Both the position numbers and the translations under genes were made by a program. This document shows, piece by piece, positions 1,102-42,175 of a DNA stretch of 64,000 nt (the stretch's first letter is position 1; every line of letters starts with the position of its first letter). The stretch is from the NCBI GenBank assembly GCA_000200715.1, contig DP000238.1, positions 618,154 to 682,153 of the forward strand. Reading direction: 5' to 3'. Under the pieces are notes generated by a model. The model searched no databases. It saw only the letters and a program-made list of their open reading frames with translations, and had not been told where the DNA came from. Source of the DNA: Cenarchaeum symbiosum A (GTDB taxonomy: Archaea > Thermoproteota > Nitrososphaeria > Nitrososphaerales > Nitrosopumilaceae).

Positions 1102-4100
1102 TCACAGCCCCAGCAGTGATCTGAAGAACTCTGTTATTGCACCCATTATACCATGTTCCTGCCGGGATTCGGATTGTCCGGTTTCCACCTGCGTTGCTGC
1201 AGGAGTGGGGGCTTCAGGATCCTCAGCGCCGGTGGCCGTGTCTGATTCTTCATGCTCTGTGAGCGTGATCGATTCCACCTCCAGTTTAGACTCTGCGGAA
1301 ACGGTCTCGGGCTCTGGATCCATCTCGGGTTCTGGGACTGCCACCGGCTCTGGATCCATCTCAGGTTCCAGTACCACCTGTACCGGGATTATCACCTCCG
1401 GCGCGGGTCCCGTATCTGGTGCATTCACGGGTGCAGATGACGGGTTTATCCTGTATACTTTGTCATGGGAGGCAAGTATTATGCCGGAGTTGTCCCGGAG
1501 CTGCATGCTCATGGTTCCAGAGAACTCGCCTTCCAGGGGCACGGCAAGGCTCTCAAAGGAGCCGTCACTATCATCCCGGTATGACGCCCCGGAGGGGGAT
1601 ATCAGCGACTGCACGTCGCACGTGTACAGGCTGCCGGATGCGGCCGCATCCCCCTCGCATTCCCTGTCAAAGAACGCCCCTATCCTGTTATAGTATATCT
1701 TGGCCTGGCCGTCTTCACTGGATATGATGACCTCCATGTCGTATACGTCGAGGTCATCTGCTGACAGGGGGGATATCACCAGGGGCATGTTCGTCCCTAT
1801 GATTATCTCGGAGCTCCCCCTTGATGCGTCCTCTCCATCGGCCGTAAACTCCAGCGAGACATCGCGCCCTATGCTCGTTATACCGGTGGAGGTTCCGCCG
1901 CCACCGCCTCCTCCGCCGCCCCTGGGGCGGGGATCGGGCTGGGGATTGGGTTGGGAAACAGGCTGGGGATCAGGCTGGAGAGTGTTGGACGCAAAAGCAA
2001 TTTGATGGTCCATGGAAACTGTCTCAACCATGGCAGGCGCATCAGGACCCCTCATACCATTCCCGTCTTGCTCTACCGTTGGTTGTGGGATCTGCTCTTT
2101 TGGCTCGTACCGGCTTATGGAACTGTCCCCTGCCACAAAGAGCCCCGTGCCGTCAGCCGAGAAGGAAAGCCCGCTGGCCTCCTGCCTTCCGGTATAGAAC
2201 GAGCCCAGGTATTCCGCCTGATCCAGGTTGTATGCACTGCCAAGATCATGGCCGTATACGTGCCTGTACTGCGAGACAAACATGCGCATACCATCGGGCG
2301 AGAACTCCAGCCCTGAGGGCTGCCATATGTGCTCCTCCAGATCGTACGAGCCGGAAGGTACAGGGGAGGTGATGTTGTATGGAGAGGGGAGGCTGTAGCG
2401 GCGGATGGATTCCCCGGCAACCACAAAGACGTACATGCCCCCATCAGAAAAGGCAATGCCGCCCGTCCCGTGTACGCCCTCCAGTTCAAACGAGCCGGAG
2501 GCTGCTGGCTCGGGCAAGTAATACGGGGAGGACAGGCCGTAGCTGTGGACGGAGGCATTCTTGGCTTCCTGAACGTATTGGTTGCTGTTATATCCATACG
2601 AGTACTTGTATCCGCCGTGCCTGGTCACAAACATTGTGCTTCCGTCTGCCGAAAAGGCAATGCCAGCCGCGTCGTCATCGCCCCCCAGCCGGCCCATACC
2701 CACATACAGTGGACTAGTCGTGTTGTACGGCGAGGTGAGGTTGTAGCGGTACACAGCATCATGGCCCGCTATCCCCGCGAACATGGCCATGCCGTCGGCC
2801 GAGAAGGCCACGTCGTAGACACTTCCGGACGAATCCAAGCCGTTGCGCGAGGTTACAAGCCTAGACAAATCTATGGTAAATGGTATGGGTAATTCATATT
2901 CTTGCACATAGTCCTCCTGCAGTATGAACATCTTGGTACCATTGCCTGAGAATGCCAGTCCGGTCGCATCATTGTCCCGCAGGTCTACTGATCCTGATCT
3001 GTTCAGCGAGGACAGGTTGTACGGCTCGGCTAGGTCGTACTGATCCAGCATACTATACTCCATCAAGAACAACCTCGTTCCCTCCGGCGAGAAGACCATG
3101 CCTTGGATTGATGTCTGGGTTTCTTGCGTTGAGTTGTATTCCGCCGTGGATACATTATACGGCACAGCCAGCTTGTATGTCTGTATATTCCTGTAATCAG
3201 ATATGAACATCAGGTCCCCTGCCGTAGAGAAATAAATCCCTGACCGGTAGTAATATCTGGTATCTAAATTATGCGACCCGACCTGCAGCGGCGCGATGAT
3301 CTCATATGGTTCGGACAGGGAGTATGCGTGCACCGACGAGTGCCCGCTATTCACGTATGATAGTACGAACAGCATGGTGCCATTAGGCGAGAAGGAAAAG
3401 CCAATGGGACTGCCGTCTTCCGGACCTATGTATACGGAATCCACAAATGAGGAGTCGGTGGTATTGTACGGCTGCGACAGATCGTACCTGTACATGTGTT
3501 GGTCTCCTCTGCCCAGCATGAACATCTGGGTGCCGTCATCAGAGAAGGCTAGCCCCCTAAAATAATTATCTCGCCCTCCGGTATGAAATATTATATCACG
3601 TTCCGGAGCGGCAATGTCATACGTATGGGGCAGGTGATATTCTTGCACATAGTCCTCCTGCAGTATGAACATCTTGGTACCATTGCCTGAGAATGCCAGT
3701 CCGGTCGCATCATTGTCCCGCAGGTCTACTGATCCTGATCTGTTCAGCGAGGACAGGTTGTACGGCTCGGCTAGGTCGTACTGATCCAGCATACTATACT
3801 CCATCAAGAACAACCTCGTTCCCTCCGGCGAGAAGACCATGCCTTGGATTGATGTCTGGGTTTCTTGCGTTGAGTTGTATTCCGCCGTGGATACATTATA
3901 CGGCACAGCCAGCTTGTATGTCTGTATATTCCTGTAATCAGATATGAACATCAGGTCCCCTGCCGTAGAGAAATAAATCCCTGACCGGTAGTAATATCTG
4001 GTATCTAAATTATGCGACCCGACCTGCAGCGGCGCGATGATCTCATATGGTTCGGACAGGGAGTATGCGTGCACCGACGAGTGCCCGCTATTCACGTATG

Positions 4101-5559
4101 ATAGTACGAACAGCATGGTGCCATTAGGCGAGAAGGAAAAGCCAATGGGACTGCCGTCTTCCGGACCTATGTATACGGAATCCACAAATGAGGAGTCGGT
4201 GGTATTGTACGGCTGCGACAGATCGTACCTGTACATGTGTTGGTCTCCTCTGCCCAGCATGAACATCTGGGTGCCGTCATCAGAGAAGGCTAGCCCCCTA
4301 AAATAATTATCTCGCCCTCCGGTATCAAGTGCATCTGCATGCTCAAATCCTGTAAGCCTGGGAGATATGCCAAATAACTCTTCGCCATAGTCGGATAGAA
4401 CAGTAGGTCCAAAGTACAATAGTGGCTGTGCATACCTGATGACTTCTTGTCTGTTTTCCTCCGTGAGTCGGAATTTGACTGTTCCCGGGTTTTTCTCGTC
4501 TACAAGTTCCATTTCTGATAGTGTAATTCCAAGCGACGACACTGTATCATTTTTTATCTGGATCCCATCGGGCCGTATGGTGGTGATGTCAACCGTGTCA
4601 TCAAATACGATCTCTAACACGCCCGTCTGCCTATCTATAGCAGCATAAAGCACACTAGTTGTGTAATTCAACTCGCGTTCATCGCCGCTGTCATAACCGC
4701 GTTCATCGCCGCTGTCATAACCGCGTTCATCGCCGCTGTCATAACCGCGTTCATCGCCGCTGTCATAACCGCGTTCATCGCCGCTGTCATAACCGCGTTC
4801 ATCGCCGCTGTCATAACCGCGTTCATCGCCGCTGTCATAACCGCGTTCATCGCCGCTGTCATAACCGCGTTCATCGCCGCTGTCATAACCGCGTTCATCG
4901 CCGCTGTCATAACCGCGTTCATCGCCGCTGTCATAACCGCGTTCATCGCCGCTGTCATAACCGCGTTCATCGCCGCTGTCATAACCGCGTTCATCGCCGC
5001 TGTCATAACCGCGTTCATCGCCGCTGTCATAACCGCGTTCATCGCCGCTGTCATAACCGCGTTCATCGCCGCTGTCATAACCGCGTTCATCGCCGCTGTC
5101 ATAACCGCGTTCATCGCCGCTGTCATAACCGCGTTCATCGCCGCTGTCATAACCACTATCTCTATACCCTGCCACCGCCACAGTGATTATTCCTGTATGC
5201 CACGGGTGCACCGAGCAAAAGTAAGGATAGTCTCCTGGTCCTTCACGAAATATTCTGGTATATGTTTCCCCCATCTCCACACTGCCGCTGTCAAATAGGC
5301 CATCTTCCTCTCCTATACTTGCACCACTGGTCACCGTGTGGAAAAACTTACCTTCATTAATCCATGTTATACTGCCACCCTGCTCAATTGTAACATCACT
5401 TGGAATGTAGCATTCGTTGGCCTCTTCGCAACCTGGCATGTGTGAATCCTCTGACATTATGACTATTGTCTCGGGACGGTCTGCATATGCCGCGGTAGTG
5501 ACTGTTATGGCCGCAATGACAAAAAGCGTGAAAAACCAGCTAATATTCAGACCCTTCAT
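1102..5559 (-). CDS. secreted cupredoxin / repeat-linker / beta-propeller surface protein
   Basis: This 1485-residue protein has an N-terminal signal segment (about residues 5-27). It continues with a plastocyanin-type domain (about 30-130) with ligands His74, Cys115 and His118. The position of the usual axial Met, as in the motif C-x2-HPWM, is His121 here (C-x2-HPWH). A linker of 20 perfect GYDSGDER octapeptides follows (about 136-295). An Ig-like SwmB-type domain comes next (motif VLEIVFDDTVD). Several beta-propeller-type repeats of about 50 residues follow, each with FSxDGTxMF and a closing xxPYN motif. The tail has a Gly run, an Ig-like segment and a Pro/Glu-rich stretch. A 689-bp block is duplicated exactly inside the propeller. 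A TATA-like stretch lies about 25 bases before the ATG. Probably exported and surface-displayed; copper binding is inferred from the ligands. Confidence 0.85.
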   Translation of the reverse strand: MKGLNISWFFTLFVIAAITVTTAAYADRPETIVIMSEDSHMPGCEEANECYIPSDVTIEQGGSITWINEGKFFHTVTSGASIGEEDGLFDSGSVEMGETYTRIFREGPGDYPYFCSVHPWHTGIITVAVAGYRDSGYDSGDERGYDSGDERGYDSGDERGYDSGDERGYDSGDERGYDSGDERGYDSGDERGYDSGDERGYDSGDERGYDSGDERGYDSGDERGYDSGDERGYDSGDERGYDSGDERGYDSGDERGYDSGDERGYDSGDERGYDSGDERGYDSGDERGYDSGDERELNYTTSVLYAAIDRQTGVLEIVFDDTVDITTIRPDGIQIKNDTVSSLGITLSEMELVDEKNPGTVKFRLTEENRQEVIRYAQPLLYFGPTVLSDYGEELFGISPRLTGFEHADALDTGGRDNYFRGLAFSDDGTQMFMLGRGDQHMYRYDLSQPYNTTDSSFVDSVYIGPEDGSPIGFSFSPNGTMLFVLSYVNSGHSSVHAYSLSEPYEIIAPLQVGSHNLDTRYYYRSGIYFSTAGDLMFISDYRNIQTYKLAVPYNVSTAEYNSTQETQTSIQGMVFSPEGTRLFLMEYSMLDQYDLAEPYNLSSLNRSGSVDLRDNDATGLAFSGNGTKMFILQEDYVQEYHLPHTYDIAAPERDIIFHTGGRDNYFRGLAFSDDGTQMFMLGRGDQHMYRYDLSQPYNTTDSSFVDSVYIGPEDGSPIGFSFSPNGTMLFVLSYVNSGHSSVHAYSLSEPYEIIAPLQVGSHNLDTRYYYRSGIYFSTAGDLMFISDYRNIQTYKLAVPYNVSTAEYNSTQETQTSIQGMVFSPEGTRLFLMEYSMLDQYDLAEPYNLSSLNRSGSVDLRDNDATGLAFSGNGTKMFILQEDYVQEYELPIPFTIDLSRLVTSRNGLDSSGSVYDVAFSADGMAMFAGIAGHDAVYRYNLTSPYNTTSPLYVGMGRLGGDDDAAGIAFSADGSTMFVTRHGGYKYSYGYNSNQYVQEAKNASVHSYGLSSPYYLPEPAASGSFELEGVHGTGGIAFSDGGMYVFVVAGESIRRYSLPSPYNITSPVPSGSYDLEEHIWQPSGLEFSPDGMRMFVSQYRHVYGHDLGSAYNLDQAEYLGSFYTGRQEASGLSFSADGTGLFVAGDSSISRYEPKEQIPQPTVEQDGNGMRGPDAPAMVETVSMDHQIAFASNTLQPDPQPVSQPNPQPDPRPRGGGGGGGGGTSTGITSIGRDVSLEFTADGEDASRGSSEIIIGTNMPLVISPLSADDLDVYDMEVIISSEDGQAKIYYNRIGAFFDRECEGDAAASGSLYTCDVQSLISPSGASYRDDSDGSFESLAVPLEGEFSGTMSMQLRDNSGIILASHDKVYRINPSSAPVNAPDTGPAPEVIIPVQVVLEPEMDPEPVAVPEPEMDPEPETVSAESKLEVESITLTEHEESDTATGAEDPEAPTPAATQVETGQSESRQEHGIMGAITEFFRSLLGL
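2896..3584. repeat. 689-bp direct repeat, copy 1 (inside surface protein gene)
   Basis: This stretch recurs at 3637-4325 with a constant offset of 741 bases and no difference that I could see. Copies are separated by 52 unique bases. It codes about 230 residues of beta-propeller repeats in the 1102-5559 gene. The lack of silent changes implies a very recent duplication or gene conversion. Confidence 0.9.
3637..4325. repeat. 689-bp direct repeat, copy 2
   Basis: This is the second exact copy of 2896-3584. Identity ends at 3636/2895 on the left and at 4326/3585 on the right, where the sequences diverge at once. The reading frame is kept because the 741-base offset is 247 codons. Confidence 0.9.
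4674..5153. repeat. 24-bp tandem repeat, 20 perfect copies, coding GYDSGDER
   Basis: The 24-base unit is repeated 20 times without visible mismatch, and reads as the octapeptide GYDSGDER on the minus strand. It forms the hydrophilic, acid-rich linker between the cupredoxin and Ig-like domains of the surface protein. All three minus frames and at least one plus frame are open through it, which produces spurious long reading frames. Not a CRISPR: there are no spacers. Confidence 0.97.
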
Positions 5560-5907
5560 TCTGATTGCACCTTGCCGGTGGCATAAAAACCCACTTGAAT
5601 TTTCATGGGATAGTTTGGATTGGCGTCTGCGTAACCCCGATCCTCGGAATTAAACCACGGGATCGTGCTTTCTAGATGTTTTGGATTTATGGATCACGGC
5701 TACACGGGAACAACTGCACTGGACAGATTCTGCTGGGATTTCTGTTCAAAGGTATGTGGGAATATCCCAAAGGCGAGGTCCGGACCAGACAATCTTCGTC
5801 CGTGCCGTATATGCAGACGAAAACACTAAGAAACCTACTTTGGGGTCGGATCAACAGAGCAGTTATCACGGCCTCCTGCTAACCTGACTTGTCCTGACGC
5901 CACAGCG
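5560..5907. other. 348-bp intergenic stretch, no gene seen
   Basis: This lies between the start of the 1102-5559 gene and the stop of the 5908-6747 gene, both on the minus strand. Short open frames exist on both strands but none shows a promoter, protein-like composition or overlap with a neighbour. A TATA-like TTTTTATG at about 25 bases before the 5559 start is the only signal I would call. Confidence 0.5.
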
Positions 5908-6747
5908 TTACAAATGACAGACAGTACAAGGCGTCTTGTCATCATCATCATCCAGAGCGTCAGACAGCACGTCCACCAGCGGTACATTCTTTCTATTCTC
6001 CTTTGCCCTCTTGAGGCTCTTTTCATGGCTTGCCATGATGTCGTCCCTTCTATCTAACAACTGGGTCAGCGTCTCGCCCTGCGACCATGTATACTGGCCA
6101 CTCTTCATCCCCTGCGCGCCAAAGTCGGCATCGCCTGACACCCCTGCGTCCTTTAGCACCTTCTGCTCTATGGCGACTGCCTTTTTGAACAATTCCGGGT
6201 GGTTGTCCGCCAGGCCGACCCATTCAGCCTTTCTCTGAAAAAAGCAGAAATAACACCCAGAACGCGTCCGCCACTTGTAGTATTCCGGCAGGTTTATCCC
6301 TGCATTATCGAGTATCTTTATGACCCCGGCATGGTCTACCCCCTCGTCTACAAATGGAAATACAGTCTTGATGTTGGGCTTTGTGGATACGTGCCCCGTG
6401 CGGTTCTTTTCATCAGCCCGTATGGCCACATACGATACTACCTCCTCGTCCCCGAGCCAGTCCTCTAGGGGCTTTATCTTTAGCAGGTTTGTGCACCAGC
6501 GCATCTGTGGAGAAGGCAGTGCTCCCCTGAACACCTCGAAATAATGGTCAAAGCCGCGCGTCGAGTTGAGCCTGGTTATCTTGCTGCCCAGAACCACCTC
6601 GAGCTTTGCAAGATACGCGTACGTCTCGGGCAGCTCCGCCCCGGTATCGCAGAAAAAATACTCCATGTCTGATACCTTGTCACGCATGTATACAGCAAGC
6701 GCACTTGAATCCTTGCCGCCAGATATGCCGCAGACCTGCCTTACCAT
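5908..6747 (-). CDS. PAPS reductase-like PP-loop protein (DndC-like)
   Basis: This 279-residue protein has the PP-loop SGGKDS at residues 9-14 and the sequence CDTGAELPETY near residue 33. It has Cys85 in a MRWCTN motif, a CxxC at 165-168 in RSGCYFC and a C-terminal CxxC at 274-277. These features fit the phosphoadenosine phosphosulfate reductase-like family, whose DndC and SspD members transfer sulfur to DNA using an Fe-S cluster. It is the third gene of an operon led by a cysteine desulfurase and a DUF4007-like protein, 64 bases after the latter. No genes of assimilatory sulfate reduction are nearby, which favours nucleic-acid sulfur modification over sulfate assimilation. Substrate and role are inferred from context. 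Confidence 0.8.
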   Translation of the reverse strand: MVRQVCGISGGKDSSALAVYMRDKVSDMEYFFCDTGAELPETYAYLAKLEVVLGSKITRLNSTRGFDHYFEVFRGALPSPQMRWCTNLLKIKPLEDWLGDEEVVSYVAIRADEKNRTGHVSTKPNIKTVFPFVDEGVDHAGVIKILDNAGINLPEYYKWRTRSGCYFCFFQRKAEWVGLADNHPELFKKAVAIEQKVLKDAGVSGDADFGAQGMKSGQYTWSQGETLTQLLDRRDDIMASHEKSLKRAKENRKNVPLVDVLSDALDDDDDKTPCTVCHL

Positions 6748-6811
6748 GGGACCGCCATCCCCAGGCCCTGCAGGCAGGACGGCGCAATGCAGGCGTGTTC
6801 ACTGGTACTGT

Positions 6812-7756
6812 TCACTGTACCGTCCCCTTTGGCATCACAAAGCCCTTTTTGCCGTATGCCTGGCCGAGTACCGCCCCTGCCGCCTCCCCGGCATCCCCGT
6901 ACACCATGTGGTTTGAGCCGTTTACGTTCCTTATGCGTATTGCGTCTGATTTGGATGCCGCCTCATCTAGTAAGCCAGCAAGCTCCCTCTCGCCCAGCTT
7001 AAAGGCCTGCCCCGCTCCCCCGGCCTCCGTGGCCAGCCTGCTAACCGAGATGCTCTTTGCGGATAACTCCAGCCTGCTGGCATAATCCAGGCAGGCATAC
7101 GCCACGACAAGGGGCGTCAAGCCGTGTTTTGGTCCGTACACAAACCGGATGGTGTCGCGCTCGGCCTGCCTTACCAGATGGAGCCCCCTGAACGGGCAGT
7201 CGATATAGTCCTCCATGGAGAGCTTGCCCTGGTACGTGCTGTACGTGTGCAGGAATACATCTATGTCCTTTTTGAGCGACTTTGGTGAGGGGGTTTTCCA
7301 TGCGGCTGTATTCAGTACCCGCTGCGAGACAAACTCTGTCATATCGTCCACCCTGACGTTGGTGCCCGACAGCTCGTTCATTATTATCCACCATACGGGC
7401 ATGCGGCACGGGGGTGCAAGCAGCAGCCAGTGCAGCAGCCACATGGTCTGCGGGTGCTCTGTATACGGGTCAAGCCCGCCCCTGTTTCTGAATATGGCCC
7501 TGCCTACAGGGGTCGCCTGCAGCGCGGGATCCTTCCTGTCCCCGCTGGGCCTGAGCACTTTACACGAGACGGACCAAAAGCGCATCGATTTTACCATGTT
7601 CTTGCCTGTCCCCAGCGTTATGGTGGCATCCTGCCTGCCGAACACTCCCGGATCTTTTGCCACCGCGTCATAGGCCTTTTTGAGCCATGCATGCCTCAGA
7701 TGGAACGTCTCATGGTTTGCAAAGGTGGGCAGGGGCACCGCGTTTGTCAGCATCAT
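6812..7756 (-). CDS. DUF4007-like protein of a sulfur-modification operon
   Basis: This 314-residue protein begins at one of two adjacent ATGs (7756 or 7753), and its start overlaps the stop of the cysteine desulfurase by ATGA, so the two are translationally coupled. The N-terminal sequences ETFHLRHAWLKKAYDAV and DPGVFGRQDATITLGTGKNM, with the later DPYTEHPQTMWLLHW, match my memory of the DUF4007 family. That family often accompanies PAPS-reductase-like genes in DNA modification or defence loci. It has no membrane segment and no catalytic motif I recognise. The biochemical role is unknown; a part in target recognition or in holding the modification complex together is only a guess. Confidence 0.72.
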   Translation of the reverse strand: MMLTNAVPLPTFANHETFHLRHAWLKKAYDAVAKDPGVFGRQDATITLGTGKNMVKSMRFWSVSCKVLRPSGDRKDPALQATPVGRAIFRNRGGLDPYTEHPQTMWLLHWLLLAPPCRMPVWWIIMNELSGTNVRVDDMTEFVSQRVLNTAAWKTPSPKSLKKDIDVFLHTYSTYQGKLSMEDYIDCPFRGLHLVRQAERDTIRFVYGPKHGLTPLVVAYACLDYASRLELSAKSISVSRLATEAGGAGQAFKLGERELAGLLDEAASKSDAIRIRNVNGSNHMVYGDAGEAAGAVLGQAYGKKGFVMPKGTVQ

Positions 7757-8892
7757 AATGCCACGCCCCCTGCCATCTTCCCCCTGACAAACCGCGAGGC
7801 GCTAGCGAGCCCCGATACTGCGGCATCGATGTCCCTTTCTTTTGTGGGCCGGCCCAGGGATACTCTGATTGATTCTCCCGCCGCATCCCTGTCAAGCCCC
7901 ATGGCGGTCAGTACATGTGACGGCTCTATCGCAGATGACGAGCATGCGCTGCCCGTCGATACCTCGACACCCCGGGCGCCAACCATCACGGCGTCCGCAA
8001 GCGCCCCCCTTATCCTGATGTTTGACGTATTCGGGAGCCTTTTTGCGCCGCCTCCATTTACTATAACATCTCCGGCTTTCCGTTCCATCCCTTCTTCAAA
8101 CATATCCCGTAATGCCGCCTGCTTGGGCATGTCCGCCAATCCCTCGGCCGCGGCAATATCACATGCTATACCAAAGCCCACTATTGCCGGAACATTGGGC
8201 GTGCCGCTGCGCATACCCTCTTCCTGGCCCCCGCCGTGTATTATCGGCCTGAGCATTCCACGGGCTTCTCGGGTGGCTGCTATCGCACCGCACCCCTTTG
8301 GGCCGTATATCTTGTGGCTGCTCAGCGTCACCATGTCTACACAAAGACCATCCATGCCAAACGGTATCTTGCCTATGGCCTGCACTGCATCGCAGTGGAA
8401 AAGTGCCCCGCATTCGTGAACAATCCTTGCTATCTCGGCAACAGGCTGTATCACGCCAGTCTCGCTGTTTGCTGCCATTATCGAGACCAGGCCAACATCA
8501 TCATCAAGCATCCTTTCCAGGCCGTCCAGATCGGTTACACCGTCAGGGCCCACGGGTACATATCCTACACTTTTCTCCTTTACCGACCGGGCGGGCTCCA
8601 GGACCGAGCTGTGCTCGGTGGCCCCTACCAGGATGCCGCGGCCGCCCGTATCGAGCCCTGATACAGCCATGTTGTTGGCTTCTGTAGCCCCGGAAGTAAA
8701 CACTACATCGCGCGCCCTGCAGCCGATACACGAGGCGACTTGTGCCCGGGCGGCATCCATCATGTCCATTGCGGCAGAGCCGTGCCCGTGTGTGCTCGAC
8801 GGGTTTCCAAAATCGATCTCAAATGCGGGCATCATTGCATCTAGTACGCGCCTATCGACCGGGGTGGCCGCATTGTAATCTAGATATGGCAT
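7753..8892 (-). CDS. cysteine desulfurase (IscS/NifS/DndA type)
   Basis: A PLP enzyme that takes sulfur from L-cysteine and carries it as a persulfide. Starting from ATG 8892 (379 aa) the protein opens MPYLDYNAATPVD, as usual for the family; a TTG at 8916 would add eight residues and is less likely. The PLP lysine is Lys194 in SSHKIYGPKG and the persulfide cysteine is Cys317 in STGSACSSS. It is the first gene of the operon with the DUF4007-like and PAPS-reductase-like genes, so it most likely supplies their sulfur (a DndA/SspA role). A general Fe-S cluster or tRNA thiolation role remains possible because no other desulfurase is visible here. Confidence 0.88.
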   Translation of the reverse strand: MPYLDYNAATPVDRRVLDAMMPAFEIDFGNPSSTHGHGSAAMDMMDAARAQVASCIGCRARDVVFTSGATEANNMAVSGLDTGGRGILVGATEHSSVLEPARSVKEKSVGYVPVGPDGVTDLDGLERMLDDDVGLVSIMAANSETGVIQPVAEIARIVHECGALFHCDAVQAIGKIPFGMDGLCVDMVTLSSHKIYGPKGCGAIAATREARGMLRPIIHGGGQEEGMRSGTPNVPAIVGFGIACDIAAAEGLADMPKQAALRDMFEEGMERKAGDVIVNGGGAKRLPNTSNIRIRGALADAVMVGARGVEVSTGSACSSSAIEPSHVLTAMGLDRDAAGESIRVSLGRPTKERDIDAAVSGLASASRFVRGKMAGGVAL

Positions 8893-9127: not shown

Positions 9128-10234
9128 ATGATAGTACTCAGAAACGAGGATCTAATCATGCGGTATCCTGCAAAGATCAAGGGGTACGGCGACGGCGTGA
9201 TGTACATTACATCGACTAGGATCTGCTTTGAATCCGACAAAAAGGGGCTCTGCTTTGACCTCGACTACTCCCATCTCTTTGACTGGACGCCCAAGAAAAA
9301 ATCAATAGAGATAAGGTGGCAGGAGCTCGAGGTGGGCCAGGCCAGGCACGAGCGCAGCGACCACATATTCAAGGTAGAGATAGAGCTCAAGAAAAGAAGG
9401 GGCAAAAAAGTGGACCCGAAAGACGTCCACTATGTCCTGTATTACACGCATACCGACCGGTTCATACACAGCAGCAGGGGCGCCGGCTGGTACCTCAACG
9501 ATAAGGAGGAGCTCATGCAGAGGCTCTATTACACGCACAAGCCCCAGCCCGCAAATGTCCTAAGCGAGTATGACATAGTGAGGAGGGCCACCGAGAGCAT
9601 GCTGTTTGAGAAAAAGACCGGGATCGAGCTGAAAGGCGATGAGCTGTACGATGAATACATGGACAGGGTAGCCCGGGATTCCGGCAGCACGGTCCTCGAG
9701 CAGCTAATCTACAAGAGGAAGCTGATGCTGAAGGCCTGGAATAAGGACGGGACGTGGGACAACACGGACGGGCTTTACACCGAACAAGAGGCCAGAAAAT
9801 CAGGCAGAGCACAGATACACTCCTTGGAGAGGAGCATCACGCGCATGATGCCGCGCTGGATTAAAGAGGACGAGGACCTGATAAAGAGGCGCGAATCAGG
9901 GGAGGTAGACGACAGGCCTGTGGATGTAAAGCCCATAGCGTACAACGGAATCACCGTCTTTCAGGGGGGCACCGTATACGACAGGCTGGAGTGGTTCAAA
10001 AAGGCTCTAATCATAGAGCGGTGTATATACGAGATAATGAAGGACATGGAGTTCGAGTGCGGGGGCCAGGCCAAGAGGTACAAAGACGACCTCTTCTGCC
10101 ATCTTATAGAAAAGATGGACCGGGGGGAGGACATATCAAACTACACCCCGGTGGTAGAAAAGATCCCGTCTGCTACAATCGAGGCCAAAAAGAAGATAGC
10201 CGCGTACAGAAATAACCTCAAAGAAGTTCCCTGA
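9128..10234 (+). CDS. 368-aa protein with PH/GRAM-like N-terminus, copy A
   Basis: The first 70 residues (GYGDGVMYITSTRICFES, then a short FDLDYSHLF and a SIEIRW strand) have the look of a PH/GRAM-type domain, a fold that usually binds lipids or proteins. The rest is charged and probably alpha-helical, with SMLFEKKTGIELKGDELYDE and paired RWIKE...DLIKR segments. I do not know a function. It has no signal peptide or membrane segment, so it is probably cytoplasmic. A close paralogue of the same length is at 12515-13621, in the second copy of the duplication. The start ATGA overlaps a three-codon minigene. Confidence 0.75.
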   Translation: MIVLRNEDLIMRYPAKIKGYGDGVMYITSTRICFESDKKGLCFDLDYSHLFDWTPKKKSIEIRWQELEVGQARHERSDHIFKVEIELKKRRGKKVDPKDVHYVLYYTHTDRFIHSSRGAGWYLNDKEELMQRLYYTHKPQPANVLSEYDIVRRATESMLFEKKTGIELKGDELYDEYMDRVARDSGSTVLEQLIYKRKLMLKAWNKDGTWDNTDGLYTEQEARKSGRAQIHSLERSITRMMPRWIKEDEDLIKRRESGEVDDRPVDVKPIAYNGITVFQGGTVYDRLEWFKKALIIERCIYEIMKDMEFECGGQAKRYKDDLFCHLIEKMDRGEDISNYTPVVEKIPSATIEAKKKIAAYRNNLKEVP

Positions 10235-10296: not shown

Positions 10297-10551
10297 TCAT
10301 TGCTCCCCATCCGAGTTCTGTTTACGTTGGAGGCTTGTCCCCGACATCTCCCCCGTCGCATATCCTGGATGGTACTCGTTCTCCTTTAGCATGCCCTTGA
10401 TTTCGTCTGCACTGGCGCCGCGTGTCTCGACCATCTCGTCGTGTATTTTCTTTGTGAAATACTGCTCTGATATGCGCGCATCACCCCTTGCTTCATCCTT
10501 TACTGAAGTATCCACGTACTCCTTGACGTTGCCTTCTGCGGGACGCTCCAT
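10297..10551 (-). pseudogene. orphan C-terminal fragment of TrbL-like gene
   Basis: Eighty-four residues (from MERPAEGNVKEYVD to the end) match the last 85 residues of the TrbL-like protein at 13689-15731, with point differences throughout. The rest of that gene is absent here: similarity stops at 10570. It was carried along by the segmental duplication. It has an ATG and a stop, but nothing suggests it is expressed. Confidence 0.8.
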
Positions 10552-10789: not shown

Positions 10790-12448
10790 ATGGACTCCGA
10801 TAAGACGCTGCTACGCAAGGAGAACATCCGCATCATAGAGGAATTTCGGGCAGCTATTGACCAGATGGGGAAGCTCAAGGAGGAGCTGGCTGAGGAGAAG
10901 GCGGCCCGGGCCAGGGAGGCTGCGCAGAGCGCCTTGTGGAAGAAAAAGTACGAGGATGCAGTGGCGAAGAATTATGAGACGCGTTCGCTCCAGGGGCAGG
11001 CCCAGTCCGGCGGCCTTCCGGCGGACCACAGGGCACCCGCGGACATAACTGACGAGCTTGCAGACGCGGACGCCAGGCACGACCGGCGGGACAAGGAGCG
11101 CGGGGCCCTGATTGGCAGGCTGGAGGACGGTAGCATGCAGGATGGTGACGGGCGCATGGCGGCAGGGATACTCAGGGAGGATGAGGTTCTGATCTCGGAG
11201 CACATGGCGGGTGCCGCGGCCATTGCAGCAAGCAACGCGCGCCTCCGCGGCGAGCTGCGAAAATACGACAACGAGAACACGCCGAGCTCCCGGCGCCATC
11301 CCTGGTACAAGAAGACCGGCAAGAAAGATGACAAGAAACCCGCCAAAAAGTCCGGCAGAAAGCCGGGCCACCCGGGCGTATCCCGGAAGAACAAGGCGGA
11401 CAGGACCGAGCACCACAGGCCCGAACGCTGCGTCTGCGGCAGCCGCAACCTCAAGGATATAGGCAGCAGCGGCAAGATGATCACCGACATACCGTACATT
11501 CCGGCATGCGAGTTTGTATACCATGTATCGCACAAGTGCAAGTGCCTTGACTGTGGCGTGGAAAATGAGGGAAAAACGCCCGGAATCAGCCACACATCGC
11601 TTGGATCCAACCTGATGACGATGGCCGCGGGGATGTGGCATGCACACGCATCCATAAGGTCGATCTGCGAGTTTGTCTACAACCAGACGGGCCTGAAGAT
11701 CAGCGCCGGCGCGATGCAGAACGCCTTGGAGTCCCTTGGCGAGAAGGCAGAAGTGGTCAAGCAGGATCTGATCAAGGAGCTGGTGGCGGGCGGATCATGC
11801 AACGCGGACGAGACAGGATACCCGCTGAATGGGGATGACGGATGGGCGTGGGTGTACGTCACCCTGTACATAACGATAATTGACATGGCGGGCAGCCGGT
11901 CGAGCCTGGTGCCGTTGAAATACCTCCCGCTGGACATGATGATCGTCTGCGACGGGTACAGCGTATACATTCGGTTCCGCGTGAAGCAGCGCTGCTGGGC
12001 CCACATACTCCGGACGGCGGACAGTTTTGCCGACGAGGGCCCCGCGGAATCGGAGCTGTGCGGCATGCTGCACGACCTGTACCGCGACGTCGATGCGGCC
12101 TGGAAGGCCAAGCTGGGGGAGGCCGCGGCCAGGCGCCGCATGGCGGAGCTGGATGCAAGGCTGTCGGGGATAGTGGCCGCCTACGAGGGGGTGCAGTGTA
12201 CATTTGCCGGCACCTTGGGGAAGGCCGAGCCCGATCTGTTCAACTGCATACTATACCACGTCCTGACACCCACCAACAACGACGCGGAGCGGGCCGTCCG
12301 GTATGTGGTGGCTCACCGCAGGTGCAGGCAGCAGCTAAGGTCGGAAGGCGGCATGAAGATGTTCGGGGCCCTCTTGACATGCATCCTGACGTGGAAAAAG
12401 CGGGGCATATCGGTTCGGGAGGGTGTTTTATCCTTGATGGGGGGCTAA
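10790..12448 (+). CDS. IS66-family transposase (TnpC-like)
   Basis: This DDE transposase has 552 residues. The N-terminus is a long charged coiled coil (about 10-60). A basic stretch with PSSRRHPWYKK follows, then a zinc-finger-like region with CVCGSRN and KCKCLDCG (about 205-250). Catalytic motifs fit IS66: Asp in NADETGYPLN, Asp in IVCDGYSVY and Glu in NNDAERAVRY. The stop codon TAA lies inside the right terminal repeat. The frame is intact, so the element may be active. Confidence 0.93.
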   Translation: MDSDKTLLRKENIRIIEEFRAAIDQMGKLKEELAEEKAARAREAAQSALWKKKYEDAVAKNYETRSLQGQAQSGGLPADHRAPADITDELADADARHDRRDKERGALIGRLEDGSMQDGDGRMAAGILREDEVLISEHMAGAAAIAASNARLRGELRKYDNENTPSSRRHPWYKKTGKKDDKKPAKKSGRKPGHPGVSRKNKADRTEHHRPERCVCGSRNLKDIGSSGKMITDIPYIPACEFVYHVSHKCKCLDCGVENEGKTPGISHTSLGSNLMTMAAGMWHAHASIRSICEFVYNQTGLKISAGAMQNALESLGEKAEVVKQDLIKELVAGGSCNADETGYPLNGDDGWAWVYVTLYITIIDMAGSRSSLVPLKYLPLDMMIVCDGYSVYIRFRVKQRCWAHILRTADSFADEGPAESELCGMLHDLYRDVDAAWKAKLGEAAARRRMAELDARLSGIVAAYEGVQCTFAGTLGKAEPDLFNCILYHVLTPTNNDAERAVRYVVAHRRCRQQLRSEGGMKMFGALLTCILTWKKRGISVREGVLSLMGG

Positions 12449-12514: not shown

Positions 12515-13621
12515 ATGATAGTACTCAGAAACGAGGAATTGATAATGCGGTATCCTGCAAAGATCAAGGGGTACGGCGACGGCGTGATGTACATTACATC
12601 GACTAGGGTCTGCTTTGAATCCGACAGAAAGGGGCTCTGCTTTGACCTTGACTACTCCCATCTCTTTGACTGGACGCCCAAGAAAAAATCCATAGAGATA
12701 AGGTGGCAGGAGCTCGAGGTGGGCCAGGCCCGGCACGAGCGTGGCGACCACATATTCAAAGTAGAGATAGAGCTCAAGAAGAGAAGGGACAAAAAAGTGG
12801 ACCCAATCGACGTCCACTATGTCCTGTATTACACGCATACCGACCGGTTCATACACAGCAGCAGGGGCGCCGGCTGGTACCTCAACGATAATGAGGAGAT
12901 CATGCAGAGGTTCTATTACACGCACAAGCCCCAGATCGTACGCGTCGTAGGCGAGGATGATCTAGTGAGGAGGGCCACCGAGAGCATGCTGTTTGAGAAA
13001 AAGACGGGGATTGAGATGAACGGTGATGAGCTGTACGATGAATACATGGACAGGGTAGCCAGGGATTCCGGCAGCACGGTCCTCGAGCAGCTCATCTACA
13101 AGAGGAGGCTGATGCGGAAGGCCTGGGAAGCGGACGAGACGTGGGATTGTGAGAGCGGACTTTGTGATGAGCAAATGGCCAGAAAATTCAGCAAGGCCCA
13201 GATCCGTGTGCTGGAGCGGCATATCAGGCGCCGGCTACCGCGCTGGATAAAAGAGCACGAGGACCTGATAAAGGAATATGAATCCAAGAAGGACGAGCTT
13301 GAGCTGACAAACTTAAAGCCCATAGTATACAACGGGACTGCCGTCTTCAAGGGCGGCACCATCTACGACAAGCTGGAATGGTATCGAAAAGCACTGGTGG
13401 CATACAGCCGTGTATATGAAATAATGAAAGATATGGAGTTCGAATGCGGGGGCCAGGCCGACCGGTACGAGAAGGACCTCCTCTGCCATTTTATAGAGAA
13501 GCTGGACCGGGGAGAGGACATATCGGACTACACGCCGGTGGTGCAAAAAATTCCATCAGCCACAGTGGCGGCAAAAAAGAAGATAGCGGCGTACAGAAAT
13601 AACCTCAAAGAAGTTCCCTGA
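12515..13621 (+). CDS. 368-aa protein with PH/GRAM-like N-terminus, copy B
   Basis: This is a paralogue of 9128-10234 with the same length. The first 140 and the last 60 residues are nearly identical to copy A; the middle (about 200-280) has diverged most. A TATA-like TTTTATATATAAG remains at 12474-12486, downstream of the inserted IS element, so the core promoter may survive while anything further upstream has been moved 1.75 kb away. The same three-codon minigene (ATG CGG AAA TGA) overlaps the start. It is convergent with the TrbL-like gene. Function unknown. Confidence 0.75.
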   Translation: MIVLRNEELIMRYPAKIKGYGDGVMYITSTRVCFESDRKGLCFDLDYSHLFDWTPKKKSIEIRWQELEVGQARHERGDHIFKVEIELKKRRDKKVDPIDVHYVLYYTHTDRFIHSSRGAGWYLNDNEEIMQRFYYTHKPQIVRVVGEDDLVRRATESMLFEKKTGIEMNGDELYDEYMDRVARDSGSTVLEQLIYKRRLMRKAWEADETWDCESGLCDEQMARKFSKAQIRVLERHIRRRLPRWIKEHEDLIKEYESKKDELELTNLKPIVYNGTAVFKGGTIYDKLEWYRKALVAYSRVYEIMKDMEFECGGQADRYEKDLLCHFIEKLDRGEDISDYTPVVQKIPSATVAAKKKIAAYRNNLKEVP

Positions 13622-13688: not shown

Positions 13689-15731
13689 TCACTCTTCTCC
13701 AAAGTCCTGCCTGTGACGCAGCCCCGCCTCCGACATCTCCCCCGTCGCATACCCTGGATGGTAATCGTTGTCCTTTAGCATGCCCTTGATTTCGTCTGCA
13801 CTGGCGCCGCGCATCTCGGCCATTTCATCGTGTATTCTTTTTGCAAAGTATTGCTCTGATATGCGCGCGTCTCCCCCTGCATCATCCTTTATCGAACTAT
13901 CCACGTACTCCTTGACGTTGCCGTCCGCAGGGCGCTCCATGTTCCTTAGTGCCCAGTCGTCGCCCCTCCATTTGTTTAACTGCTCGAGCTGCTCGGGGCT
14001 AATTCTGCCCTCATTGACGGCCCCGGCAAGCTCCTTGTTGATCTCGTTGCGATTCTCACTATCCGTCATGCTCTTGTCCCATTCATGTTCAACTGCCCCC
14101 GACCCGCGCAGCCCACTTGCATTCTCCTCCGTATGGCCCCGGTCCGCCTGAGCCGCCCTGATCCTCGCTATTGCAGCATCCTGCTCTGCAATCGAGCTGT
14201 ACTGTTCTCCATGCGGCATCTGCTGGTAGCCGCTAGCTATCTGGTGGCCAAGCGCGGCAGGGTTTAGAGCTACACCGCCAAGCGCTGGAACGGCGACCCC
14301 TCCATGGCCGTGCAAGAGCCCGCGGCCCATCCCCTGCATGCCGCCCATCATCATTGCAGCCCTGCCACCCCCAGTCTTTGCGGCATTCTTCATGCCCCCG
14401 GCAAAGCCTGCCGCGGCCATCCCCGTGACCATCGCGCTAGTCTGCACTGCAGATCCCACCACCTGGGTAGTCATTGTCACTGCCCCCTGCAGCATCGGAA
14501 CCAGCATTACAGGCAACGATATCGAGAAAAACACCACCCCTAGCGCCGTAATCCAGACGTATATGTGCCCAAGGCCCGCGCCCCGGGGCTCTTGCACTAT
14601 AGTCTGGTTCCCAAATGCATCCTCCGTTATGGATATGGCAGGCTCTGAATGCTCGGCTGCCTGGACTACAGCACCCGCCCCGACAGAGAGCACTATCGCA
14701 GATAACAGGGGAAGAAGCAGCAGCGCCGGGAGCGCGTCGATAAACCTGCCCGCCACCTGGTCTATCTTTGGGACAAGTGTCAGCATTGCAAAGACAGGAA
14801 ACGCCGCTATCACCATAGACGTGAACATATCAGTCATCACGCCTATCAAAAGGGAGAGTATCAGCACCTGTATCGACACAAGGGCCTTTGTCAGCCCCAG
14901 AAACGCGTTGGTAAACGCGCCCTCTATCCCCTTTGCAACATCATTTTGCAGCTCCCCTATCCAGTCGGATGTTCCAAGGTCTATTCCCGCATTCTCCCGA
15001 AGGTCCGCCACCTCTGTAGGCCGTATCATGTTCCCAAAGACATACGAGACTTTCAGCCTGTACTCGCAGACTGCCTCATATTTGGTCACAGGCGCGCCCC
15101 TCTCCCCCACCTGTTCTATGATGCCATCCCCGGACCACGGGACGGCATCCCCGGGATCCACCTTATCGAGCACCAGCCGGGCCTGAACCTTGTCCCTCTC
15201 CGGTACATACGGGGACGATACGTATTCCTCTAGTATCCTCTCTGGATCATCATACCATTGTATAGGGCACGGAGAGCCCTCATCGTACGAGTACAACGGG
15301 TTTAGAACCCACAGGGAGAGGCCGTCAACTGACTCGCTTATCCCGTCCCACATGGGCGGGAATACAAGGAATATCAGCAGGAATATCAGCGATCTAGAGA
15401 TTACCTTGTTCGATGTGCCCGGAGCGAGCCCCATCTCTGCATTCTCAAGAACCCTCGATATGGCAGCCCAGACGAATACCCCTGCTAAAAGCCCTACCGC
15501 CACATACCTCATTTGTACAAACGCATCAAATGACGCATTTCCGTGCTCGCCTCCCCCGTCAAAATAATACCCAAAGCCCGGCGTCCCAAAGGCAAGCGTC
15601 ATGTACGTATCCTCTATCACCCCGGACAGCGATATGACCAGGCCCACTAGCGCAAATATCATCACCATGACGCCCGCAAGAAGTATGATCGAGCCTATCG
15701 CGGGGCTCCGGCGCCGCCGTGTATCCCTCAC
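13689..15731 (-). CDS. TrbL/VirB6-like polytopic membrane protein
   Basis: This 680-residue protein has hydrophobic segments near residues 10-35, 70-90, 110-130 and a dense cluster at about 275-435. A long Gly/Ala/Met-rich then hydrophilic, charged tail follows (about 450-680). The extracellular-looking loop at about 150-240 carries paired cysteines. This layout is that of TrbL/VirB6 inner-membrane channel parts of type IV secretion systems. A shorter paralogue is at 52419-53633, sharing the loop features NPxYxxG...CPxxW and the hydrophobic core. It is the last gene of an operon with an actin-like and a VirB11-like ATPase, and overlaps the 101-aa gene by 4 bases. The family call is by architecture and context. 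Confidence 0.65.
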   Translation of the reverse strand: MRDTRRRRSPAIGSIILLAGVMVMIFALVGLVISLSGVIEDTYMTLAFGTPGFGYYFDGGGEHGNASFDAFVQMRYVAVGLLAGVFVWAAISRVLENAEMGLAPGTSNKVISRSLIFLLIFLVFPPMWDGISESVDGLSLWVLNPLYSYDEGSPCPIQWYDDPERILEEYVSSPYVPERDKVQARLVLDKVDPGDAVPWSGDGIIEQVGERGAPVTKYEAVCEYRLKVSYVFGNMIRPTEVADLRENAGIDLGTSDWIGELQNDVAKGIEGAFTNAFLGLTKALVSIQVLILSLLIGVMTDMFTSMVIAAFPVFAMLTLVPKIDQVAGRFIDALPALLLLPLLSAIVLSVGAGAVVQAAEHSEPAISITEDAFGNQTIVQEPRGAGLGHIYVWITALGVVFFSISLPVMLVPMLQGAVTMTTQVVGSAVQTSAMVTGMAAAGFAGGMKNAAKTGGGRAAMMMGGMQGMGRGLLHGHGGVAVPALGGVALNPAALGHQIASGYQQMPHGEQYSSIAEQDAAIARIRAAQADRGHTEENASGLRGSGAVEHEWDKSMTDSENRNEINKELAGAVNEGRISPEQLEQLNKWRGDDWALRNMERPADGNVKEYVDSSIKDDAGGDARISEQYFAKRIHDEMAEMRGASADEIKGMLKDNDYHPGYATGEMSEAGLRHRQDFGEE

Positions 15732-17028: not shown

Positions 17029-18501
17029 CTATTTAAGCGAGTAATATTCACTCAGTATCCCAAATACGGCTTTTATATTGAGCGCCTTTTTCTCCATGCA
17101 TTTTTCCAGCAATCCAATTCTTTTCTCCATGTCCGCGCCGGGGTCGTCTATCCCGCAGATATCTAGCGCCTCGGCGTACCTTTTGTGCGATGTTATATCT
17201 CCATGCAATACAAACCCGTCGGACCTTCTATCGTATGTATACACGGGCTCTGTGCGGACGGTCCCGTGTACGCCCGGTATTACCTCTGATATCGAGGTCA
17301 CCCTGCGCACGCTTTTGCCCGAGCGGCGTATCACGCCAGAGCGGGCGGCAAACCACAACAGGCCAAGCTCGCCGTCGGATATTTTGTTCCCGCGCATTCT
17401 CGTCAGCGCGCCTTCTGCCGATGATGCATGAAAGGAGGTAAGGCCGCCGTGGCCCGTCCCCACGCTCTGGAATAGAGCATCCATGTCGTTGAGCCTTATC
17501 TCGCCTACTATCTCATAGTCGGGCTTTTGCGTGAGGGATATGTCTATCAAATGGCGTATCGTCACGTCGAATTTGTCAGATAACATGCCATAGCTTCTCC
17601 TTGTATTCAGGCGGACCCAGTCCTCGTGGGGTATCTGCAATTCGAGCGTATCTTCTATGGTAAGTATCCTCCATCTTGGGTTGAGCATGGATATTAGAGA
17701 GGCCAAGAGGGTCGTCTTGCCGGAGCCGGTAGCCCCTATTACCAGGCCGACAGCCTTTGCATCGAGCAAAGTCCACAGGTAGGCGGCCATGGGGGCTGTC
17801 AATGTGCCCGAGTATAGCATGTGGGTTATGGTGAATGGCTCTGATGGAAACTTGCGTATGGATATGGACGGCCCGGGCTTTGATACCTGGCTTCCATAGG
17901 TAGATGATATCCTCGAGCCGTCGTCCATGTATGTGACGCTCATCGGCCGCGCGTCTGTCGGCTCTGTGCCCGTCCTTCCGTATATCCTCTGTATGAACCG
18001 CTCCATGTCGTCTTCGCCCTCAAAGCGGACGTTTGTGCAAAGCGTGTGAAACCTCCCCGAATACCTCTTGTGGACCACCCGGACGTCCCTCTGGTATGCA
18101 GAGCATAGTATGTCCTCTATGTCGGGGTCGCGCATCAGCGGGTCGAGTATTCCATAGCCGATTATCTCGCGCCGTATGTAGTATTTTAAATCGGGAAAGA
18201 TCTCTTTTGCCTCGCCGAGTTTTTTCAGGCGCCCTGCAGTATCCCAGAATGCCTCTTCGAGCCTTGCAGCTAGCACGCCGGAATCCGGGCCGTCATCGCC
18301 AAGGTCGACCCCTGAGCTTATCCTTTTTAGAATGGTATCGTACAGGGCAGACGCGCCGTCCCCAACTGGGGGCTCGCGGACCATGTACCTTCCGTCCGTT
18401 GTAATGTATACCTTGACGGGCCCCATGGAATACTCTTCTATGACATCGAGCCCTGCGGGGTCGACATCCATCGAGCATATCTTGTACCTGGGGGCGGGCA
18501 C
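17029..18501 (-). CDS. VirB11/TadA/FlaI-type secretion ATPase
   Basis: This 490-residue hexameric traffic-ATPase homologue starts at GTG 18501; ATG 18471 is an alternative. The N-terminal domain includes GYGILDPLMRDPDIEDILCS, typical of archaeal GspE/FlaI/TadA proteins. Walker A is GATGSGKTT (about 256-264), the Asp box region is ILTIEDTLELQ, and the His box is GHGGLTSFHA. It energises assembly of a pilus or secretion system at the inner face of the membrane. It is the first gene of the operon that continues with the actin-like and TrbL-like genes. A TadC/FlaJ-like partner lies at 40324-42174. Confidence 0.88.
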   Translation of the reverse strand: MPAPRYKICSMDVDPAGLDVIEEYSMGPVKVYITTDGRYMVREPPVGDGASALYDTILKRISSGVDLGDDGPDSGVLAARLEEAFWDTAGRLKKLGEAKEIFPDLKYYIRREIIGYGILDPLMRDPDIEDILCSAYQRDVRVVHKRYSGRFHTLCTNVRFEGEDDMERFIQRIYGRTGTEPTDARPMSVTYMDDGSRISSTYGSQVSKPGPSISIRKFPSEPFTITHMLYSGTLTAPMAAYLWTLLDAKAVGLVIGATGSGKTTLLASLISMLNPRWRILTIEDTLELQIPHEDWVRLNTRRSYGMLSDKFDVTIRHLIDISLTQKPDYEIVGEIRLNDMDALFQSVGTGHGGLTSFHASSAEGALTRMRGNKISDGELGLLWFAARSGVIRRSGKSVRRVTSISEVIPGVHGTVRTEPVYTYDRRSDGFVLHGDITSHKRYAEALDICGIDDPGADMEKRIGLLEKCMEKKALNIKAVFGILSEYYSLK

Positions 18502-18918: not shown

Positions 18919-19030
18919 GCCGGGGCAGCCAGGCCGCAGCCGGATATGCCTTGCGTGCGTTGGAACGGGCTGATGATGCGCGCGGCATCTGCCGGATTTG
19001 CCAAAGCCGGCCGCCCCCGCCGGCCGGGGC

Positions 19031-19038
19031 CTTTTATA
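19031..19038 (+). promoter_or_regulatory. TATA-like box of VirB4-like gene
   Basis: CTTTTATA lies 20-27 bases before ATG 19058, in the usual place for a leaderless archaeal transcript. This decides for 19058 rather than the earlier in-frame starts at 18998 or 19040. Confidence 0.6.
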
Positions 19039-19057
19039 CATGCACGCGTTATGCCGC

Positions 19058-20944
19058 ATGTTCGGATCAGAGGCCCGCAAGCCTGGAGCACGCGGCCCCG
19101 CCAGGAGGCCCGCCGTCTCCTACCAGATATCTCCTACCAACTATCTGATACTGTCCGAGGGTGAAAGAGACGAGGTGCTGCGACGCTTCGTCCGGATAAT
19201 GGCCGGAGTGGAGAAAAAGCTCCGCGTTACGATACGGAACCAGTCAGTGCAGGCCTCGTATGCAGGCAGGCCGTACAGGTATACAGAAAAGATGGTCTAC
19301 TTTACGTCCCGGCAGGACCTTGGGCCCGCCATAATGGCGGGCGGCTTCAAGAGCACGCGCCTCGACGAGCCCGTATCTGATGAGATATCCCGGGAGCGCC
19401 TGCACCATATGGATATGGCCGACGGCACTCTATGCAGGGCATATACAGTATATGATCATGCGCGCTCTATCTCTCCTGCGTGGATAAACGGGATAGCCTC
19501 GCTCTCTGATATACTGAATATAGATGTCTCCCCCGTCAGCCCGCATGCGGCCCGCAGGATGCTAGTATCCCATGCCAACACGCTTGATTCTTCTGCAAAC
19601 AGGCGGGCTAGGGAAGAGGCAGAAGAGGCCCGCCACGTAAACGACCTGGTCCAAAAGCAGGAGACTGTCATATACGAATGCGGGCTGACCGCGATGGTCA
19701 CCGCCCGGGATGCATCCTCGCTTGCAAAAAAGTGCGCCGAGTTTGAGCGCCAGGCGCGGTGGTCGCAGATCAGGCTGCTCTCCGTCCGGGGCAGGCAAAA
19801 GGCCACCCTAGACGGCTGGGGCCACCGGTTTCTCTACGAGGGCTCCGGCATGGCCGCATTCTACCCCTTTGAGAGCAGCGACATGATAGAGGCCGACGGG
19901 GCGGGCGGCGTGTACATTGGCAGCAACGAGCTTACCGGCACCCCCGTCATATACGACTACCTCCGGCGCTCCAATTATAACATGACCATACTCGGCTCGT
20001 CGGGCGCGGGAAAGTCTGTCGCCGCCAAGACCTACATAGACAACTTTCGCCGCATGCTGTCTGAAAAGTACGGCGCATCCCAGCCGTACAAGGCCTACAT
20101 ACTGGACCTGCACGGAGAATACGCGCAGCTGGCAGAATACCTGGAAATGAACGTGCTAAATATCATGGATAGGACGGAGCTTGGCCTCGACCCGTTCCAC
20201 CTTCTTGATACGGGCGACCAGGCAGTTGATATGCTGGCTACCGTCTCCGAGATGCCTGCAAACCTGCGCAGCTTGGCCATATCGCGCGCGCAGGGCGCGG
20301 GCTCTGTTGCTGATCTTGTCCAGATACTTCAAAATGACAAGACAGGCCATGCAGAGGACTGTCGACGGGCGGCCACGTACCTTTTGGAATTTGCCGAAGG
20401 CGAGCTTGCCGGGATGTTCCGCGGGGACCTGCCCCTGCACGGGAGGACCGTCGTCACCCTGAGAAACGCCGACAAGTCAAAAATAAACGCGATGCTGATC
20501 TCGCTCATCCTGCAAAGAATCTGGAACGACATACGAAGGACGGAACGGCATGTGCCCAAGCTGCTAGTCATAGAGGAGGCGTGGTTTGTGCTGTCCATGC
20601 CGTCGACAGCCCGGATCATAGACGATATCGCCCGCTCGGGAAGAAAAGAGAACCTCCACTGTTTAGTAATGACGCAGGATATAGACGAGATGATAACGAG
20701 CCCGGCAGGCGCGGCAGTGATAAAAAACTCTGCCACCATGATGATGCTGCGGCTGGTCAAAGAGACTGCCGTAAAGCTGCAGGGCGTACTTGCCCTCTCC
20801 GACAAGGAAAGAGACGAGATCACCATGCTTGATACGGGCCAGGCCATGGTGCGCGCAGACAACAACCGCATAAAGCTAAAGGTGCGCCCGACCCCCGCCC
20901 AGCTCAAGAAATTCGACACCTCGGCTGGCGGCTTTACTGCATAG
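19058..20944 (+). CDS. VirB4/TraC-like secretion ATPase
   Basis: This 628-residue protein has Walker A GSSGAGKSVAAK (about 313-324) after an N-terminal domain of about 300 residues. Then follow AYILDLHGEY, a Walker B-like KLLVIEEAWFVL, and the C-terminal motifs RSGRKENLHCLVMTQ and NSATMMMLRL. These are hallmarks of the VirB4 family, which powers substrate transfer or pilus biogenesis in type IV secretion. It is monocistronic, with its own TATA box, divergent from the VirB11-like operon and convergent with amoC. A conjugation-type role is inferred from the family, with partners at 13689-18501 and 42176-44827. Confidence 0.9.
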   Translation: MFGSEARKPGARGPARRPAVSYQISPTNYLILSEGERDEVLRRFVRIMAGVEKKLRVTIRNQSVQASYAGRPYRYTEKMVYFTSRQDLGPAIMAGGFKSTRLDEPVSDEISRERLHHMDMADGTLCRAYTVYDHARSISPAWINGIASLSDILNIDVSPVSPHAARRMLVSHANTLDSSANRRAREEAEEARHVNDLVQKQETVIYECGLTAMVTARDASSLAKKCAEFERQARWSQIRLLSVRGRQKATLDGWGHRFLYEGSGMAAFYPFESSDMIEADGAGGVYIGSNELTGTPVIYDYLRRSNYNMTILGSSGAGKSVAAKTYIDNFRRMLSEKYGASQPYKAYILDLHGEYAQLAEYLEMNVLNIMDRTELGLDPFHLLDTGDQAVDMLATVSEMPANLRSLAISRAQGAGSVADLVQILQNDKTGHAEDCRRAATYLLEFAEGELAGMFRGDLPLHGRTVVTLRNADKSKINAMLISLILQRIWNDIRRTERHVPKLLVIEEAWFVLSMPSTARIIDDIARSGRKENLHCLVMTQDIDEMITSPAGAAVIKNSATMMMLRLVKETAVKLQGVLALSDKERDEITMLDTGQAMVRADNNRIKLKVRPTPAQLKKFDTSAGGFTA

Positions 20945-42174: not shown

Positions 42175-42175
42175 A

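Follow-up and report, generated by a model that had tools for sequence, protein, structure and literature searches.

A predicted Ssp-type phosphorothioation operon without SspC in the ammonia-oxidising archaeon Cenarchaeum symbiosum A

Three intact open reading frames on the minus strand of the Cenarchaeum symbiosum A genome encode a cysteine desulfurase, a DUF4007 protein, and a PAPS-reductase-like sulfurtransferase. They are located in the window, which is the whole 64,000-nucleotide stretch of DNA that was analysed (G000:C1:618154-682153). The genome is a single closed contig of 2,045,086 bp and is 99.9% complete. The operon and its surroundings comprise the following features, given in window coordinates; locus 2 is a second site in the genome described below.

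7753..8892, minus strand: sspA, cysteine desulfurase, with an ATG start (to 8916 with an upstream TTG start); PADLOC SspA E=2.7e-126
6812..7756, minus strand: sspB, DUF4007 protein, the DNA-binding/nicking component of Ssp; PF13182 E=5e-84, PADLOC SspB E=7e-85, 6juf E=4e-45
6748..6811, minus strand: 64-bp spacer between sspB and sspD; relatives have an SspC gene of about 3.4 kb at the same place
5908..6747, minus strand: sspD copy 1, ATP-pyrophosphatase/PAPS-reductase-like sulfurtransferase; PADLOC SspD E=3.5e-106
5665..5876, plus strand: 5' end of a PLD-nuclease gene, a frameshifted remnant; tblastn with the intact locus-2 PLD as query, residues 1-72 in three frames, E=5e-8
1102..5559, minus strand: beta-propeller-type surface protein gene flanking the operon; 82% protein identity to L023:1-3231

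A sequence-only reading had described a three-gene operon with the first two genes coupled by ATGA, and this is the organization of the locus: sspA and sspB overlap by 4 bases (7753-7756). The three products match the Pfam families Aminotran_5 (E=2e-69), DUF4007 (E=5e-84), and PAPS_reduct (E=9e-10). Among PADLOC models, the desulfurase matches SspA with E=3e-126 and DndA close behind with 3e-124; because the two models score nearly alike, the protein has been named SspA from its context. It keeps 38 of the 39 columns conserved in comparison with 37 other Ssp-linked desulfurases, including the catalytic-loop cysteine, the PLP lysine, and the substrate-binding asparagine and arginine (C325, K202, N150, and R351, in TTG-start numbering). 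The DUF4007 protein resembles the solved structure 6juf, which is an SspB. Therefore, it is not the distinct new partner that the sequence-only reading had considered, and the statement that SspB and SspC are not seen in the window is wrong for SspB, whereas it holds for SspC and extends to the whole genome.

The third protein had been called DndC-like; however, it is SspD. Its PADLOC match to SspD has E=4e-106, as opposed to 3e-5 for DndC, and it scores 15.2 bits against the DndC model TIGR03183, which has a cut-off of 290. Against the sulfate-assimilation reductase model NF002537, the score is 21 bits with a cut-off of 154. In a tree made of SspD proteins only, it nests inside the family, alongside those of other ammonia-oxidising archaea. 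The affiliation with sulfate-assimilation enzymes or tRNA thiolases that had been named as speaking against a role in DNA modification is thus not what these scores and the position within the SspD-only tree indicate. The assignment to the DNA-phosphorothioation family with a part missing has held for both the family, through the SspA, SspB, and SspD profile matches, and the missing part, which is SspC, but not for the DndC label.

The operon shares SspA, SspB, and SspD orthologues, the order A-B-...-D, and overlapping genes with the SspABCD systems of Vibrio cyclitrophicus FF75 and E. coli 3234/A. By contrast, C. symbiosum lacks SspC and has a second SspD elsewhere. BREX type 4 has the SspD/BrxP PAPS-reductase and DUF4007 (SspB) families in common with it (PMC12839542); however, C. 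symbiosum has no BrxC/SspC, its operon encodes its own desulfurase, and no PglZ was found in the genome, for which reason an assignment to BREX type 4 has been rejected. DndABCDE and archaeal DndCDEA-PbeABCD systems also combine a desulfurase with a PAPS-reductase-like sulfurtransferase, and the helicase of locus 2 is similar to the helicase portion of PbeA. However, the PAPS protein of C. symbiosum is SspD and not DndC, and the PLD protein and helicase are encoded by separate genes. The Dnd assignment has been rejected on the PADLOC and TIGR03183 results and because the DndD ATPase was not found in the genome.

Phosphorothioation genes in ammonia-oxidising archaea are already known, contrary to the supposition of the sequence-only reading that no example had been described. 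The dndABCDE genes have been reported from Ca. N. ianthellae, CcThau, Ca. Nitrosomarinus catalina, and Ca. Nitrosopumilus salaria, and dnd-like genes with low similarity from C. symbiosum (PMC6790972); the latter was repeated and more cases were added in PMC7848895. The sponge symbionts C. symbiosum and two others have also been reported to contain dndB-like genes with DUF262/DUF1524 (PMC6790972). In the accessible parts of PMC6790972 and PMC7848895, neither the Ssp type nor the missing SspC is identified.

SspC was not found in genome-wide searches with single proteins and the PADLOC profile, nor among the large window proteins scanned against PADLOC. A profile of six archaeal SspC proteins gives no more than 12 bits over 25 Walker-A positions in the genome; as a positive control, it recovers a full-length SspC at more than 1360 bits in each of six relatives, the same six that were used to build the profile. 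The junction of sspB and sspD is a clean 64-bp spacer in which no SspC sequence is recognisable, and the flanking genes are open. In a sample of 400 genomes from the class and 250 from the family, seven genomes carry DUF4007, the source genome included. In all six of the other DUF4007-bearing ammonia-oxidising archaea, an SspC of 1076-1145 residues is encoded directly downstream of SspB. SspC follows SspB in 77 of 80 further bacterial and archaeal loci drawn from a collection of public genomes; one of these loci is that of a congener already present among the six. In the other three, the contig ends (L082), SspC is truncated (L087), or no SspC is detectable (L091). Many genomes share the order A-B-(C)-D; therefore, the arrangement of the operon is not due to chance. 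Judged by its gene content, the locus is predicted to be an Ssp phosphorothioation operon that lacks only SspC. Ssp islands do decay in this group, since in the ammonia-oxidising archaeon G101 two stop codons interrupt sspD, whereas the adjacent sspABC genes are intact. The same genome has, on a different contig, a second fragment of the SspC C-terminus; these features are at L017:3752-4459 and L047:9688-10494.

A second sspD is positioned at locus 2, about 28 kb upstream. Its product is 92% identical to that of copy 1, and the two are sisters in the tree with support of 99/98. Beside sspD2 are intact genes for an SF2 helicase, a GHKL ATPase (HATPase_c_3), and a PLD-type protein with an HxKxxxxD motif, in the order PLD-GHKL-helicase-SspD2, together with a GmrSD restriction-type gene. 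SspC is missing from locus 2 as it is from the window locus. The helicase-GHKL-PLD trio has the following position.

L023:3338-7755 (G000 about 591337-595754): helicase-GHKL-PLD trio of the source genome

Window DNA at 5010-5878 is homologous to L023:2688-3555, including 217 bp of the PLD gene, and the DNA of the flanking surface protein gene is 88% identical to that of its locus-2 paralogue over 2.7 kb. The presence of this paralogue next to locus 2 marks the duplicated segment. Together with the PLD remnant, the homology of the two flanks shows that one Ssp island was duplicated and that pieces were then lost from both copies. The PLD remnant is what was left behind when an effector module was deleted at the window copy. 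In the congener Cenarchaeum sp. (G132, OY282369.1), A-B-C is followed about 9 kb further on by D-helicase-GHKL in the locus-2 order, and the gap between them contains repeated, inserted-looking genes. What the island contained before it was duplicated can be reconstructed tentatively: it may have comprised the propeller gene, PLD, GHKL ATPase, helicase, SspD, SspC, SspB, and SspA. After its duplication in this lineage, the window copy would have lost PLD, GHKL, helicase, and SspC, and the locus-2 copy would have kept PLD, GHKL, helicase, and SspD but lost SspA, SspB, and SspC. Losses of SspC before and after the duplication require equal numbers of events.

The two loci differ by 12-15% at the DNA level, which is roughly the divergence of population types a and b in C. 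symbiosum, and the genome was assembled from environmental fosmids that sampled a mixed sponge population. SspC might accordingly be encoded in the organism and yet be absent from the assembly, if a cloned insert had suffered a deletion, if the consensus combined several strains, or if sister strains were arranged differently. This is quite improbable, given that the assembly is one closed contig with 99.9% completeness, that the spacer is clean and bordered by open genes, and that SspC is gone from both loci.

The coding sequences of sspA, sspB, and sspD show no sign of decay. All 66 conserved columns of SspD are kept. Between the two sspD copies there are 126 differences in 837 sites; 98 of these are at third positions, and dN/dS is 0.03-0.05 at a dS of about 1. 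Where replacements can be polarised, four occurred in one copy and four in the other. With all replacement differences assumed to be neutral and to fall on one branch, the low dN/dS leaves room for neutral evolution over less than about a tenth of the SspD branch. SspB keeps 25 of 27 conserved columns, with changes at the near-invariant positions V50T and P248A. These changes are not informative about relaxed selection, because two archaeal relatives whose SspC is intact show departures at three.

A desulfurase and an ATP-pyrophosphatase sulfurtransferase are in principle sufficient for thiolations other than that of DNA. The constraint that persists without SspC could thus reflect the repurposing of A-B-D as a sulfur relay for another substrate, such as RNA or a cofactor. 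This is very improbable: the operon retains the DNA-binding SspB, SspD does not depart from its own family and does not resemble sulfate-assimilation models, and the second SspD adjoins a helicase, an ATPase, and a nuclease.

Twelve of the 80 loci have both the helicase and the GHKL gene next to Ssp genes; PLD is in view in seven of the 12, and at several loci the two genes directly follow sspD. Eight of nine plasmid records with a GHKL homologue have an SspD-type reductase within 9 kb. The conserved helicase-GHKL-PLD trio repeatedly accompanies SspABCD in archaea, bacteria, and plasmids, at the following loci.

L056, L057, L065, L066, L070, L092, L108: trio beside SspABCD
L128-L133, L135, L136: trio beside SspABCD, plasmid loci

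The trio looks like a further Ssp effector module and is a candidate for this role. Its proteins have only partial matches in PADLOC, to PbeA and MzaB. No name for an Ssp-linked helicase-ATPase-PLD system was found in the open-access papers searched. The putative effector of C. symbiosum is the trio together with the GmrSD protein rather than the SspE or SspFGH of other SspABCD systems. The latter scores higher against HEC-06/Orf5 models than against SspE, and none of the window or locus-2 proteins tested match SspF, SspG, or SspH. Two more GmrSD-type (DUF262/DUF1524) proteins of 704-713 residues, 33% identical to each other, are encoded away from the ssp genes in the source genome (L025:9289-11403 and L026:9142-11283).

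That the effectors are intact although phosphorothioation may be lacking points either to an effector that depends on phosphorothioation or to continued formation of the modification. The system may work without SspC, with SspA, SspB, and SspD, and the second SspD, modifying DNA, an unrelated host ATPase or nothing at all replacing SspC, and the trio serving as a phosphorothioation-dependent effector. The three operon genes are intact with conserved catalytic residues, both SspD copies have been under strong purifying selection over a dS of about 1, and the effector genes of locus 2 are intact. SspFGH harms cells without phosphorothioation (PMC8092258), and the retention of intact effectors, if they were of this kind, thus fits continued modification. 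By contrast, effectors of the SspE and PbeABCD types are harmless without phosphorothioation and act only in its presence (PMC8092258, PMC6459918); therefore, intact effectors do not require the modification. Furthermore, no other convincing system without SspC exists among the 80 loci, and no candidate replacement ATPase was found. An SspC-independent working system is thus unlikely. It is rather unlikely that C. symbiosum provides a natural example of phosphorothioation by SspA, SspB, and SspD only, with SspC dispensable or replaceable, paired with a helicase-GHKL-PLD effector outside the described Ssp effectors that were found.

The explanation that we favour over a working variant without SspC and over an artefact of assembly or population is that of a recently disabled Ssp system, in which the SspA-SspB-SspD modification arm remains and SspC has been lost; we consider it moderately probable. 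In the Ssp literature, SspC is described as a requirement for phosphorothioation; this Orc/Cdc6-type AAA+ ATPase probably drives the complex on DNA or positions it there. According to the known pathway, SspA would take sulfur from cysteine onto its own active-site cysteine, SspD would accept the sulfur and use ATP to activate the DNA phosphate, and SspB would bind and nick the target DNA. Sulfur transfer from SspA to SspD and single-stranded phosphorothioation via SspB nicking have been described (PMC7188994). In C. symbiosum A, canonical phosphorothioation is most likely off now, with the A-to-D sulfur relay and the effector genes still intact. If the last loss of SspC killed the system, it would have been recent, because the remaining genes are intact and without decay. 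Three observations speak against a disabled system: the intact effector genes are odd for a dead one, SspA, SspB, and SspD have not decayed, and the low dN/dS leaves little room for a neutral phase of SspD.

What SspC does in phosphorothioation is still in part an inference. The genome represents a natural knockout, in which SspC alone has been lost, whereas the genes of the sulfur relay and the DNA-binding subunit have been kept along with intact effectors. This makes it testable whether phosphorothioation can proceed without SspC, and whether a helicase-GHKL-PLD effector is harmless in its absence. The same comparison exposes the trio as a recurrent partner of SspABCD from archaea to plasmids.

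Within the large surface protein gene at 1102-5559, a 24-bp unit that encodes RGYDSGDE is repeated in tandem about 20 times (window 4674-5154); the gene also has an internal repeat, about 0.7 kb long (2896-3590 and 3637-4328). On the other side of the operon, the window contains an IS66-type transposase gene (10790-12448, PF03050 E=6e-28); zero IS-like transposons have been counted in C. symbiosum A (PMC6563490). The gene is flanked by two very similar 368-residue GRAM-domain genes (9128-10234 and 12515-13621) and by a fragment (10297-10551) of a 680-residue gene (13689-15731). Coupling-protein-like, TraG/HerA-like, and secretion ATPase/T2SSF-like genes of the window (42125-44827, 18998-20944, 17029-18501, and 40324-42174) are possibly parts of an integrated conjugation-like element.
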